64,000 nt of DNA from an uncultured Alphaproteobacteria bacterium (GTDB taxonomy: Bacteria; Pseudomonadota; Alphaproteobacteria; RF32; CAG-239): positions 1 through 64,000 of the forward strand of contig CALYBC010000018.1 of assembly GCA_944393725.1 (NCBI GenBank), in the 5' to 3' direction. The position numbers and the translations under genes are program-made. How positions within the stretch are numbered: the first letter of the stretch is position 1; every line of letters starts with the position of its first letter. The notes beneath the pieces were generated by a model. That model was not told where the DNA came from. It worked only from the letters and a program-made list of their open reading frames with translations, and made no database searches. Positions 9,429 to 59,863 of this stretch are shown here, in pieces.

Positions 9429-11033
9429 CTATTTTGTCATGGCTTTATACTGTTGCCACCCTCCGGCATAACTCAAAACTTTATCAAAACCGTTTTGCAA
9501 CAGAATTCTTGCTGCCACATAGCTGGTATATCCCTTAAAGCAATGTACCATGATGGTTTTATTTTTTGGCAGCTCGGCCAAACGATTGCGTAACTGTCCG
9601 GCCGGAATATTGATTGCACCATTGATATGTTCTTGATTATATACGGCTTCCGGACGCACATCAAGCACCACCATATCAGAAAAATCATTACTGAAATAAG
9701 GTTTAACCAAACCGTCTCGGGCATTACATATTGCCATACCAATCATATTAACCGGATCTTTGGCTCCCGAATACGGCGGTGCATAGCACAACTCCGCGTC
9801 TCTCAGGTCTTCAACCGTTCCGCCCAAACGCATTATGGTGGCAATTACATCAATTCTTTTATCCACCCCTTCGCTTCCTACTGCCTGAGCTCCCAGAATT
9901 TTTCCTTTTGCATCATACAAAACTTTTATGGTTAAAGCTTTCGCATCAGGATAATATCCGGCATGCGAATTTCCCCAAATCAGCATTTTTTCATACGAAA
10001 CACCTGATTTTTGCAATTGTTTTTCATTATTACCGGTAAATGCGGCTGTTAAGCCAAATACTTTAACGATCCCCGTTCCTTGAGTTGCATTATATGGATA
10101 CGGATTTTTACCGGCGATATGATCGGCAATCAACCTGCCCTGACGATTAGCCGGACCGGCCAGTGCAATCATAACCTCATTGCCCGAGACAAAATCTTTT
10201 ACCGCCACACTGTCACCGCAAGCATAAATATCGGCAATATTGGTCTGCATAAATTCATTGGTTTTTATTGAGCCTCTTTCCGTTAAAGCAATACTGGCTT
10301 CCTTTGCCAAATAAGTATTTGGTTTAACCCCTATGGCTAAAATCACCATTTCGGCATCAACTTTTGCTCCCGAATTAAGCACCACTTTTTGCGGCTCAAT
10401 TTTTTTCAAACCGTCGCCCAAATACAAATCAATACCTTTATTTTTCATCTCCGTATGAATTTGACAAACCATATCCTCATCTAAAGGCATTAAAACTTGC
10501 GAAGCCAATTCAATCAGCGATGTTTTCAAGCCCAAATGCACCAGATTTTCGGCTATTTCAACTCCGATAAAACCACCGCCGACAACCGCAGCCGACTTAA
10601 CATTATTTTGTTTGATAAAGGCTTTTATTTTATCGGCATCGGCAAGATGCTTAAGCACAAAATGCGGCATATTTTCAATGCCGTCAATCTGCGGCACAAA
10701 AGGCTCAGCCCCAAGTGACAGCACCAATTTGTCATATTCATATTTTTCCCCGCTAAAAGTCATAACCGCCTTATTTTCGGTATCGATTTTTACCACCTCG
10801 GCGTTCAGTTTAATATCAATATTAAACAAGTTTTTAAATAACGCCAGTTTGGCCACTTGCATATTTTCTCTGTCACTTATTACATCTCCGACGAAATATG
10901 GTAACCCGCAACTGGCAATCGATGTTTCATCGGTTTTTTCCAAGATTGTAATCTCGGCTTTATCATCAAGCCTACGCATTCTGGCCGCAAAACTGGCTCC
11001 GCCGGCACCACCACCCACAACAACTATCTTCAT
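9429..11033 (-). CDS. FAD-dependent CoA-disulfide-reductase-like protein with C-terminal rhodanese domain
   Basis: A pyridine nucleotide-disulfide oxidoreductase fused to a rhodanese domain, 534 residues. The N-terminus has the FAD-binding GGGAGGASFAARMRR; the single redox cysteine lies in SIASCGLPYFVGD (about residue 42), as in CoA-disulfide reductases and NADH oxidases. The NAD(P)H fold is GGGFIGVEIAENL (about residues 151-163) and the second FAD motif is IYACGDSVAVKD. The C-terminal rhodanese domain (about 440-534) has the catalytic loop VHCFKGYTSY, so it should be able to carry a persulfide. Likely roles are coenzyme A disulfide, polysulfide or persulfide reduction for thiol balance. AAGGG precedes the ATG. 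Substrate choice cannot be read from sequence. Confidence 0.9.
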   Translation of the reverse strand: MKIVVVGGGAGGASFAARMRRLDDKAEITILEKTDETSIASCGLPYFVGDVISDRENMQVAKLALFKNLFNIDIKLNAEVVKIDTENKAVMTFSGEKYEYDKLVLSLGAEPFVPQIDGIENMPHFVLKHLADADKIKAFIKQNNVKSAAVVGGGFIGVEIAENLVHLGLKTSLIELASQVLMPLDEDMVCQIHTEMKNKGIDLYLGDGLKKIEPQKVVLNSGAKVDAEMVILAIGVKPNTYLAKEASIALTERGSIKTNEFMQTNIADIYACGDSVAVKDFVSGNEVMIALAGPANRQGRLIADHIAGKNPYPYNATQGTGIVKVFGLTAAFTGNNEKQLQKSGVSYEKMLIWGNSHAGYYPDAKALTIKVLYDAKGKILGAQAVGSEGVDKRIDVIATIMRLGGTVEDLRDAELCYAPPYSGAKDPVNMIGMAICNARDGLVKPYFSNDFSDMVVLDVRPEAVYNQEHINGAINIPAGQLRNRLAELPKNKTIMVHCFKGYTSYVAARILLQNGFDKVLSYAGGWQQYKAMTK

Positions 11034-56598: not shown

Positions 56599-59202
56599 CT
56601 ACATCTCAATTAAATTTTTAAAATCATTAATATTAACCTTGTCTGACAAAGCAATTCCATTGGGATATTCTGGCGAAAACAAAATATAAAGCGGTAATGA
56701 CTTTTTCATAAAAGTTTTTTGTAATTCTTTTGCCAAATTGCTATTTGCCTTAATATTGTATTCTCGCACCTGATTTTTCTGCATTCTTTCTTTAATATCG
56801 GTATCATCAAAAACCATCACATCATTATACATACAGACCACACACCAATCGCTATCTATTTTCACCAAAACCTTATTTTTTAATCGCACCTCATTTTCTA
56901 TATTATTCATGGTCGCCGATATTTCTTTCTGAGCAAACCTTTCATTTGATAATTGACCGTTTCTAAATACAGCATAAAGTGCAACTGTTCCCACCAAAAC
57001 AATAACGCAAATCTTTGCTCGATTTACATATGTATTCGATTTTTCACGACCACAAGATTTTCTGATTTCTTGCTTAAATATCTTATAAATATATAAAACC
57101 AACCACACTAAGCCAAAATATCCAAGCCACGCCGCCTTTACGCCGTAATTAAGCACTCTTCCCAAGATTGATACCGTCAAAATGATATCCACGACAAGTA
57201 TAATGACGGCCGCATTTTTAAACATCACATGCCACTTCTCAGGATCAGCAAAACACGATGATACTTTTTTATATCTAAACACAATAAAATATGGTGTTGC
57301 CGCGCATATGCCAAGCAAAGCCAAAACAAAAGGCATCATCCATGGTTGTCGGTTCACCGTGGCAACAATATTTTCCATATAAGGAGGTGTGTAAATAAAA
57401 GCCAAAATTGCCATTAAGAAGCCACTTAAGACAGCTGCCGTTTTTTTGTATTTCTGCTTTAATGAAGTCAAATCAAATAATTTCCAAAAGCTAAGTAACA
57501 TAAAAATTTCGATCCAAATTATTACTGTCAGAAAATAAGGATTCTCAAGATGTTCACCCCATTCAAAGCTATATCCGCCAAGTTTCAACAAACTTAACAA
57601 TAAAATTGCCGCCCCAAAAGATCCCAGCACACCCAAAGCGGTATAACCAAATTCGTATTTTATATTTTTTATACCGCCAAACTCTGATAATTTCATCATT
57701 TTTGCTGCGGTTATAGGTAATGCCCCCGGCATAATAAACAAGGTCAGCCCACAAACAACAACCATCAGCACAAGACCAACCGCATTATCGGTCTCAGCCA
57801 TAACATCACTACCGGCAACAACAGTTTTCTCCACGATGCACTGATTAATACCGCTGTCACCGACCCACATTTTAATTGTCTTTCCTAAAGGATTAAATGA
57901 TTTATTTTTTAGCTCAAAGCTAGCCGTAACGGTATCTCCGTCAATCTGTAATTTGGGGCGTGAAAAATTATTTGCTTCGTCACCGTAAATAAATATCTTA
58001 AACTGTGATGCTCTGCTACTTTTAGCCCTCAGTGACAACAGGGCATTTTTTTCATCAAATTCTAATTCACTGAAGTCAAAATTTTTAATATTTTTATTTT
58101 GCGGTACATTTCCCCTCACCAATGCCACATGGGCCGCAAAAGTTGTTTCGTATACATTATCGGTTACCGGAACTTCAGTCGCCAGGTTCAATTTTTTTTC
58201 ACCGCACATATAATCCCGACAAACATTGAGCTGTATTTTGCAATCTAACTTTAATGGCTTTGTTATATCATCAACTTCGGCTTCAAAATAAACAGGAAAA
58301 CTATCAGCGTACCCCAACAACAAAGTACCGTCTTTGGTTTTAATCATAAGCGGAGCCGTAAATTTTACTTCTGCTTTTTTCAAATTTTCCGAAGCCGAAA
58401 AATCGATTTTTATACCTTTATAATTTTTATATTTCTGCAACAAGACCAAGGTCTTTTTTTTAGGATATACTTCAATGGTTCCGGTAAATTTTCCATCTTT
58501 TCTGACACCGGTATATTCTGACAAAATTACAGCTTTAACATTTTCATTTTCATCGTCGACAGCCAGTTCTTTTCCTCTAAACCTATCAGGCAAAAGATCT
58601 CGCCAATCAAAATTAAAAACTTTTGCCCAATCTTTGTTTATAAAAGCTTTTTTAAGTTTAGCCATTGTCTCTGACGGTCTTTCGGAATTACTGTCGATAG
58701 CCAACTTTTCCTTTATTGCCAGTTTGTCTTTCGGTGAATTTGAATAAGAAACTACTTTCTTAAAATCTTGAATAACAAGTGGGCTATCTGTTGGAATATA
58801 TTCCTCACTTTCTCCCATTTCATACTGGCTATCATCAAAACGCAGCGGCATTTCCACACTCGCTACCCAATCAACGACCTTTTTCTTAACCTTTTCATAC
58901 CACGCATAAACTTCTGCGCCGTTTTTCAAATATCCCTGCCATTTTTCTGCGTGTTCTCTATCAAAATACGGATATTTATCCATCAGCTCTTCTGTAATAT
59001 CCGTTTCACTGTTTTCATCAAAAGTTTTAATGTATTTTTTCAAATCATTAACATAATTGGCCCCGGTTTCCAATACACCTACATTTTCCGGATAATAAAC
59101 ATCATCGTTTTCGACATTCAAAATCACCCGCCCTTGTGCCTTTGCGACAACTGGTGAGCAAACAAGAAGAAACCAAATTAAAAAATGAACATACTTTTTC
59201 AT
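56599..59202 (-). CDS. DsbD/ScsB-like protein lacking membrane redox cysteines
   Basis: An 867-residue membrane protein with the layout of the DsbD/ScsB family. A signal peptide is followed by a long extra N-terminal periplasmic region, an alpha-type domain with KIQLNVCRDYMC (cysteines about residues 327 and 332), a membrane domain from about residue 475, and a C-terminal thioredoxin-like domain with DWCVVC (about residue 787). DsbD relays electrons through two membrane cysteines in MPCxLP and TPCT motifs. Here the matching sites read FIMPGALPIT (about 490) and YTPPYMEN (about 605), with Gly and Pro in place of Cys. Electron relay by the known route therefore looks impossible. No ribosome site is present and the start is chosen at ATG 59202. 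Confidence 0.8.
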   Translation of the reverse strand: MKKYVHFLIWFLLVCSPVVAKAQGRVILNVENDDVYYPENVGVLETGANYVNDLKKYIKTFDENSETDITEELMDKYPYFDREHAEKWQGYLKNGAEVYAWYEKVKKKVVDWVASVEMPLRFDDSQYEMGESEEYIPTDSPLVIQDFKKVVSYSNSPKDKLAIKEKLAIDSNSERPSETMAKLKKAFINKDWAKVFNFDWRDLLPDRFRGKELAVDDENENVKAVILSEYTGVRKDGKFTGTIEVYPKKKTLVLLQKYKNYKGIKIDFSASENLKKAEVKFTAPLMIKTKDGTLLLGYADSFPVYFEAEVDDITKPLKLDCKIQLNVCRDYMCGEKKLNLATEVPVTDNVYETTFAAHVALVRGNVPQNKNIKNFDFSELEFDEKNALLSLRAKSSRASQFKIFIYGDEANNFSRPKLQIDGDTVTASFELKNKSFNPLGKTIKMWVGDSGINQCIVEKTVVAGSDVMAETDNAVGLVLMVVVCGLTLFIMPGALPITAAKMMKLSEFGGIKNIKYEFGYTALGVLGSFGAAILLLSLLKLGGYSFEWGEHLENPYFLTVIIWIEIFMLLSFWKLFDLTSLKQKYKKTAAVLSGFLMAILAFIYTPPYMENIVATVNRQPWMMPFVLALLGICAATPYFIVFRYKKVSSCFADPEKWHVMFKNAAVIILVVDIILTVSILGRVLNYGVKAAWLGYFGLVWLVLYIYKIFKQEIRKSCGREKSNTYVNRAKICVIVLVGTVALYAVFRNGQLSNERFAQKEISATMNNIENEVRLKNKVLVKIDSDWCVVCMYNDVMVFDDTDIKERMQKNQVREYNIKANSNLAKELQKTFMKKSLPLYILFSPEYPNGIALSDKVNINDFKNLIEM

Positions 59203-59296: not shown

Positions 59297-59863
59297 ATGG
59301 ATAAAATTGATATAAAAAATCTTACCGGCAAATGCCTAATCTCACTAACCGATTTTAGTGATGAATTTACAGATGCCTTGATATATGTTTGTGCTCACAA
59401 TTCCGATGGAGCCATGGGATTTGTTATTAATAAAAGAATCAAAGATTTTATGCCGTCAGATTTAATTGCCGATTTAAACTTTAATCTGCCCAATCTTTCG
59501 CTTCCGGTTGGGTTATATAACGGCGGCCCATTAGAAAAAGCCAAGGGTTTTATTATTCACTCTAATGAATACCATCGCCATGACAGCATTGACAACGGCG
59601 GCGGTATAGCCATATCCTCATCATTGGAAGTTTTGCAAGACATCTTTACCGGCCAAGGCCCACAAGAAAAGATGATTGCGCTTGGCTATGCCGGCTGGGC
59701 TCCCCTGCAACTAGAAAAAGAGATTGCCGAAAACCGTTGGCTGGTCACCGAAGCCACGCCGGAGCTGATTTTTGCTCATGACGACGCCGCCAAACGCAAC
59801 CTCGCACTGTCATATCTGGGCATTGATTACGAAAACTTCACTCCGACCATCGGCCGAGCTTAA
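59297..59863 (+). CDS. yqgE: YqgE/AlgH family protein
   Basis: A conserved 188-residue protein of unknown mechanism (DUF179). Typical motifs are LTGKCLISLTDFSDEFTDALIYVCAHNSDGAMGFVINK at the N-terminus, LYNGGPLEKAKGFIIH in the middle and ALGYAGWAPLQLEKEIAENRWL near the end. AGGG lies before the ATG. It converges with cysS, with 6 bases between stops. Confidence 0.93.
   Translation: MDKIDIKNLTGKCLISLTDFSDEFTDALIYVCAHNSDGAMGFVINKRIKDFMPSDLIADLNFNLPNLSLPVGLYNGGPLEKAKGFIIHSNEYHRHDSIDNGGGIAISSSLEVLQDIFTGQGPQEKMIALGYAGWAPLQLEKEIAENRWLVTEATPELIFAHDDAAKRNLALSYLGIDYENFTPTIGRA

Follow-up and report, generated by a model that had tools for sequence, protein, structure and literature searches.

An ScsB-like protein without its two membrane relay cysteines, and repeated relay loss in an alphaproteobacterial family

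Both cysteines that normally relay electrons through the membrane are replaced in an ScsB-like protein encoded in the window, i.e., the whole analysed stretch of 64,000 nucleotides from an uncultured alphaproteobacterium (contig CALYBC010000018.1, positions 1 to 64,000). The soluble redox sites of the protein are kept, and the reading that we favour, regarded here as evenly balanced between right and wrong, is that the relay has become redundant and that what stays in use is a periplasmic thiol module, anchored in the membrane and probably supplied with electrons in trans. DsbD and ScsB are usually described as single machines with indispensable membrane cysteines, and DsbD/ScsB proteins without the relay were not reported in any of the open-licence papers searched. 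The notable aspect of the relay-less ScsB-like proteins is their repeated origin. About twelve independent relay losses, in proteins whose soluble redox sites are mostly maintained by selection, suggest that the outer domains are useful in themselves.

Gene, domains, and fold

The gene is one open frame on the minus strand, with the ATG at 59202 and the TAG at 56599-56601. The features referred to in the text are the following:

56599..59202, minus strand: ScsB-like gene, whole, 867 aa (open reading frame, translation, structure model, and fold matches)
59137..59202, minus strand: signal peptide, residues 1-22, called by eye on the sequence MKKYVHFLIWFLLVCSPVVAKA
58573..59133, minus strand: family-specific periplasmic region, mostly helical, residues 24-210 (models and genome scan)
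58744..58767, minus strand: conserved DFKKVVSY, residues 146-153, inside the helical N-terminal region (family alignment)
57805..58572, minus strand: alpha domain (two beta domains) with the ScsB periplasmic fold, residues 211-466 (match to 6c29)
58204..58221, minus strand: alpha cysteine pair, Cys328 and Cys333 (kept in 114 of 114 orthologues)
56923..57783, minus strand: membrane domain without relay cysteines, residues 474-760 (model, hydropathy, and rates)
57724..57726, minus strand: Gly493 (GGG) at the position of the TM1 relay cysteine (orthologue alignment)
57391..57393, minus strand: Tyr604 (TAC) at the position of the TM4 relay cysteine (orthologue alignment)
56602..56919, minus strand: gamma domain with a thioredoxin fold, residues 762-867 (1vrs_D, Z 11.1)
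56833..56844, minus strand: gamma CVVC, Cys787 and Cys790 (orthologue alignment)
59297..59863, plus strand: divergent neighbour, presumably a yqgE-like gene going by recognition of its sequence (adjacent in 32 of the 35 genus genomes and, in the other three, not seen within the stretch examined)

The AlphaFold2 model of the protein, built on 28 orthologues and with a mean pLDDT of 78, is laid out as signal peptide, helical region, two beta domains, helical membrane domain, and thioredoxin fold. Residues 211-464 superpose on the N-terminal periplasmic domain of Proteus mirabilis ScsB (6c29) with a Z of 19.8 and an rmsd of 3.0 over 235 of 247 residues, and residues 762-867 match the gamma domain of DsbD. 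The first-pass annotation, made from the sequence of the window, had called the protein DsbD-like, but its closer kinship is with ScsB: the score against the DsbD model NF001419 is 33.9 bits, far under the curated cut-off of 330, and the DsbD membrane-domain model PF02683 gives no match to the protein, which, on its modelled fold, is ScsB-like and not E. coli DsbD-like. The NCBIfam model TsoB (a rhodanese/DsbD fusion-like selenoprotein) is matched by 22 of the 28 aligned orthologues. These matches, with a best E of 1.4e-25, presumably reflect the DsbD part that model and orthologues have in common.

The extra N-terminal stretch that the annotation had described is present, but it is shorter than the 250 residues proposed, amounting to about 185 (residues 24-210) relative to ScsB, since the ScsB periplasmic domain itself takes up residues 211-464. 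It is, moreover, a family-wide trait: the helical region is common to orthologues across the bacterial family of the window and, among 385 scanned genomes of the class, is seen solely in that family. No useful match to it was found among Pfam families or solved structures, which does not imply a new fold. The DFKKVVSY stretch is conserved across the family (K148 at 98%, Y153 at 99%) and lies in a low-confidence, probably flexible part of the model.

Replacement of the relay cysteines

The alpha pair (Cys328/Cys333, in CRDYMC) and the gamma pair (Cys787/Cys790, in WCVVC) are present as first described, and the two relay columns are indeed occupied by other residues. Specifically, the TM1 relay cysteine, which lies in MPC in relatives, is replaced by Gly493, and the TM4 relay cysteine, which lies in STPCTAPY in relatives, is replaced by Tyr604 in the aligned AFIYTPPY. 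Thus, the glycine named at the first site stands, while the proline of TPPY named at the second does not: the alignment of TPPY on TPCT was out of register and was dropped, as the cysteine column falls on Tyr604. With both relay cysteines gone, a DsbD-style electron relay within the molecule cannot work, as had been anticipated.

The same Gly and Tyr are found at the same positions in the orthologue of a sister species, read from a separate genome (G011, also L054; contig CASFRM010000005.1). The change is fixed in this sister species, and since this gene shares 81% identity with that of the genome of the window (G000) at a dS of 0.68, a read error is excluded. Two further membrane-domain cysteines, Cys484 and Cys633, occur in both genomes, lie off the catalytic columns, and are absent from the other relay-less clades; no other membrane cysteine stands on a catalytic column in the alignment, so the possibility that such residues align with the catalytic sites, named at the outset as a refutation, is not borne out.

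Relay losses across the genus and the family

An orthologue was found in all 35 genomes of the genus, and nine of them lack both relay cysteines while none lacks just one; the replacing residue pairs are G/Y, L/L, F/L, A/F, G/F, S/F, I/M, and A/Y. On the genus tree, derived from RelA and neighbouring housekeeping proteins, five changes are needed, at least four of them on well supported branches. The GltX that G008 contributes to this marker set is a paralogue (32% identity) that lengthens the branch at its tip, but the count of losses does not depend on it because G008 also pairs with G022 in trees of the long protein.

The survey was extended to the family by scanning 136 genomes and fetching the long gene from other genera. 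Among the 114 orthologues in which both relay positions are readable, 82 have both cysteines, 28 have neither, and four have one; the statement that a single cysteine is never lost, true of the 35 genus genomes, was dropped on account of these four. A tree built from the N-terminal and alpha regions alone requires 12 changes between intact and not intact, at least 11 of which are forced by well supported branches, and the 12 groups comprise ten double and two single losses. On these trees, relay loss has occurred in about 12 independent events, and the gene of the window, first regarded as a single odd case, is one among them. One clade alone holds 12 relay-less proteins across three genera.

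The soluble sites behave differently from one another. The alpha pair is intact in 114 of 114 sequences that cover the region, whereas the gamma CxxC is absent from four of the 28 relay-less proteins vs none of 81 intact ones (Fisher p 0.004), with the gamma cis-Pro837 and Asn793 conserved at 100%. The distribution suggests an order of loss in which the relay goes first, gamma sometimes follows, and alpha, in the sequences read, never does.

Outside these orthologues, genomes of the genus g280 (e.g., G421, G433, and G443) give one DsbD-type match, with an E of about 1e-40 and the size of a short DsbD. The long ScsB-like gene is seemingly absent from this genus and was not found in some other genomes of the family; as it is missing from some genera, it is not essential to all.

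Evolutionary rates and selection

Rates were compared by fitting branch lengths for each region on a fixed tree, which for the genus sets five relay-less groups against 13 intact ones. In the membrane domain, all five relay-less groups are faster than all 13 intact groups (median per RelA 38 vs 10, p 0.0002), and gamma is moderately faster in the relay-less groups (19 vs 7.5, p 0.01), while the per-region branch lengths show no speed-up of alpha or of the N-terminal region. The family gives the same picture relative to alpha, with a TM/alpha ratio of 2.43 in relay-less vs 0.72 in intact proteins (p 3e-7), a gamma/alpha ratio of 1.40 vs 0.57 (p 1e-6), and no difference in the N/alpha ratio; these p-values are all approximate, as the intact tips share ancestry and the groups were chosen by the trait. 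Expressed relative to alpha, the membrane domain of the relay-less lineages evolves about three times faster and gamma about 2.5 times faster.

Purifying selection nevertheless persists. Between G000 and G011, dN/dS is 0.155 overall, 0.094 for residues 24-262, 0.251 for the membrane domain, and 0.075 for gamma; in other relay-less pairs it is 0.13-0.14, vs 0.06-0.09 in the intact pairs compared alongside. The number of membrane segments and their hydropathy are unchanged in the relay-less proteins. From these rates, the protein looks like one that is in use and whose membrane domain has turned mainly into an anchor.

Other thiol-redox genes

A look for a separate CcdA or DsbD, recommended at the outset, led to a complete canonical short DsbD elsewhere in the same genome (515 aa, all six cysteines; G000:C9:210781-212325). 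The six cysteines of the short DsbD are intact in every fully readable copy of the genus, including those of eight of the nine relay-less genomes; in the ninth, G022 (88% complete), neither the short DsbD nor its usual upstream neighbour was found. In the complete genome G002 (L007, L088), the short DsbD has been lost together with its upstream neighbour, a CDP-alcohol-phosphatidyltransferase-like gene, and G002 keeps both relay cysteines of the long protein, being the sole keeper in its group with G010 and G023. This pattern is what redundancy predicts, yet it is a single case.

Proteins of PF13462 (ScsC/DsbA-like) are encoded in every genome of the genus, two in nearly all, with the CxxC intact where it was read; their presence throughout rules out partner loss as the cause of relay loss. 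DsbB (PF02600) was not found in any of the 35 genus genomes. The ScsB-like gene itself lies between yebC-like and yqgE-like genes, with no adjoining scsC; the genes for the PF13462 proteins are at other loci. Within the window, positions 9429-11033 hold another thiol-redox gene, which by eye we take to code for a pyridine-nucleotide disulfide oxidoreductase with a rhodanese-like C-terminus.

Possible roles of the relay-less protein

The gamma domain of DsbD receives its electrons from the membrane domain and passes them to alpha through transient, weak complexes (PMC3961690), and ScsC is held reduced by ScsB (PMC8900818). As the membrane cysteines are missing, the step from membrane to gamma cannot take its known course inside the molecule, while the transient, weak nature of the complexes between DsbD domains makes exchange between molecules plausible. 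In the favoured reading, the canonical DsbD would provide the periplasmic reducing power and render the relay of the long protein redundant. The relay-less protein would stay as a membrane-anchored unit for thiol exchange and docking, in which the canonical DsbD may reduce gamma and alpha in trans. From these two domains, electrons may go on to clients with a thioredoxin fold in the periplasm, the ScsC/DsbA-like proteins being an example; in some lineages, gamma too could be bypassed and alpha alone left. We infer the transfer in trans, which is not given by any sequence result.

The favoured reading is consistent with the roughly 12 independent losses, the invariant alpha pair and the gamma CxxC of 24 of the 28 relay-less proteins, the relaxed membrane domain beside an unaccelerated alpha and N-terminal region, the low dN/dS, and the retained membrane segments, as well as with the short DsbD in eight of nine relay-less genus genomes, the G002 pattern, and the PF13462 proteins throughout. 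Conversely, the relay-less G022, in which no canonical DsbD was found, speaks against it, as does the absence of the long protein from some genera, and the four relay-less proteins that also lack the gamma CxxC imply that gamma is not always needed. Moreover, redundancy alone cannot explain which lineages lose the relay, since lineages with an intact relay have the canonical DsbD just as well. The orthologue pairs of intact and relay-less type, G004 with G013 and G002 with G010/G023, offer ready-made material on feeding between DsbD-type proteins.

Another electron donor and a scaffold, both put forward in the first-pass annotation, are the live options. The chief rival, possible though on the unlikely side, is a non-redox scaffold, i.e., an adaptor, anchored in the membrane, that binds partners by its helical N-terminal region and alpha, with Cys328-Cys333 as a structural disulfide and gamma as a mere fold or binding module. 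It would account for the normal constraint on the N-terminal region and alpha beside a relaxed relay and gamma, for the conserved DFKKVxxY in a probably flexible segment, and for a gamma CxxC lost four times, in relay-less proteins only, around an invariant cis-Pro837 and Asn793; however, the CxxC that most relay-less proteins keep and the low gamma dN/dS of the G000/G011 pair fit continued redox use better. A further reading, held to be unlikely, is that an ScsB-type reductase was converted about twelve times in parallel to a relay-less, anchored receptor or redox-sensing adaptor, whose helical domain would bind a client or an envelope partner and whose alpha and gamma pairs would signal or relay onward the periplasmic redox state that the canonical DsbD maintains; if so, the protein would be an adaptor or regulator and not an electron carrier.

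Slow decay, in which the relay is lost first, gamma next, and the gene last, is quite improbable. The acceleration of the membrane and gamma domains, the existence of single-loss intermediates, and the failure to find the gene in g280 and some other genomes agree with it, but simple decay is made less likely by the persistence of purifying selection, with dN/dS of about 0.13-0.16 and no frame damage in the relay-less pairs, by the alpha pair kept in every sequence and the unaccelerated N-terminal region, and by the gene's retention in the clade of 12 relay-less proteins over three genera. It is far less probable still that electrons cross the protein by another route, e.g., with the help of a bound cofactor or of further membrane cysteines. 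The membrane domain region of each relay-less protein does contain three to six additional cysteines, yet no pair of them is common to the relay-less clades of the genus, intact proteins carry extras too, and the domain is relaxed and not remodelled under constraint. The new membrane mechanism once envisaged is likewise unsupported, the domain evolving like one released from constraint. Lastly, sequencing or assembly error at both codons, conceivable in draft assemblies, has a negligible probability, given that an independent sister genome carries the same two residues in a gene with numerous silent changes and that 32 of the 114 orthologues show relay losses.

Comparison with known systems

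The protein resembles ScsB of Proteus mirabilis, Salmonella, and Caulobacter crescentus in its tandem beta-domain periplasmic alpha with a cysteine pair, its DsbD-like membrane domain, and its C-terminal thioredoxin-fold gamma with a CxxC, here WCVVC (PMC8900818). Unlike ScsB, it has no relay cysteines, although 82 of the 114 orthologues have both, and it has the family-specific helical region in front and no scsC beside it. With DsbD of E. coli and Neisseria, and with the short DsbD of its own genome, it shares the gamma fold, the WCxxC, and a distant homology of the membrane domain, whereas the alpha part of DsbD is a single beta-domain and its two relay cysteines are in place; the short copy retains all six cysteines. 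CcdA is homologous to its membrane domain, with a weak profile match to 5vkv, but consists of the relay alone, which is the part lost here. Like pseudoenzymes, it is a conserved protein without the residues for the ancestral reaction; unlike pseudoenzymes in general, it has lost the relay module alone, and the other two redox sites are usually kept.
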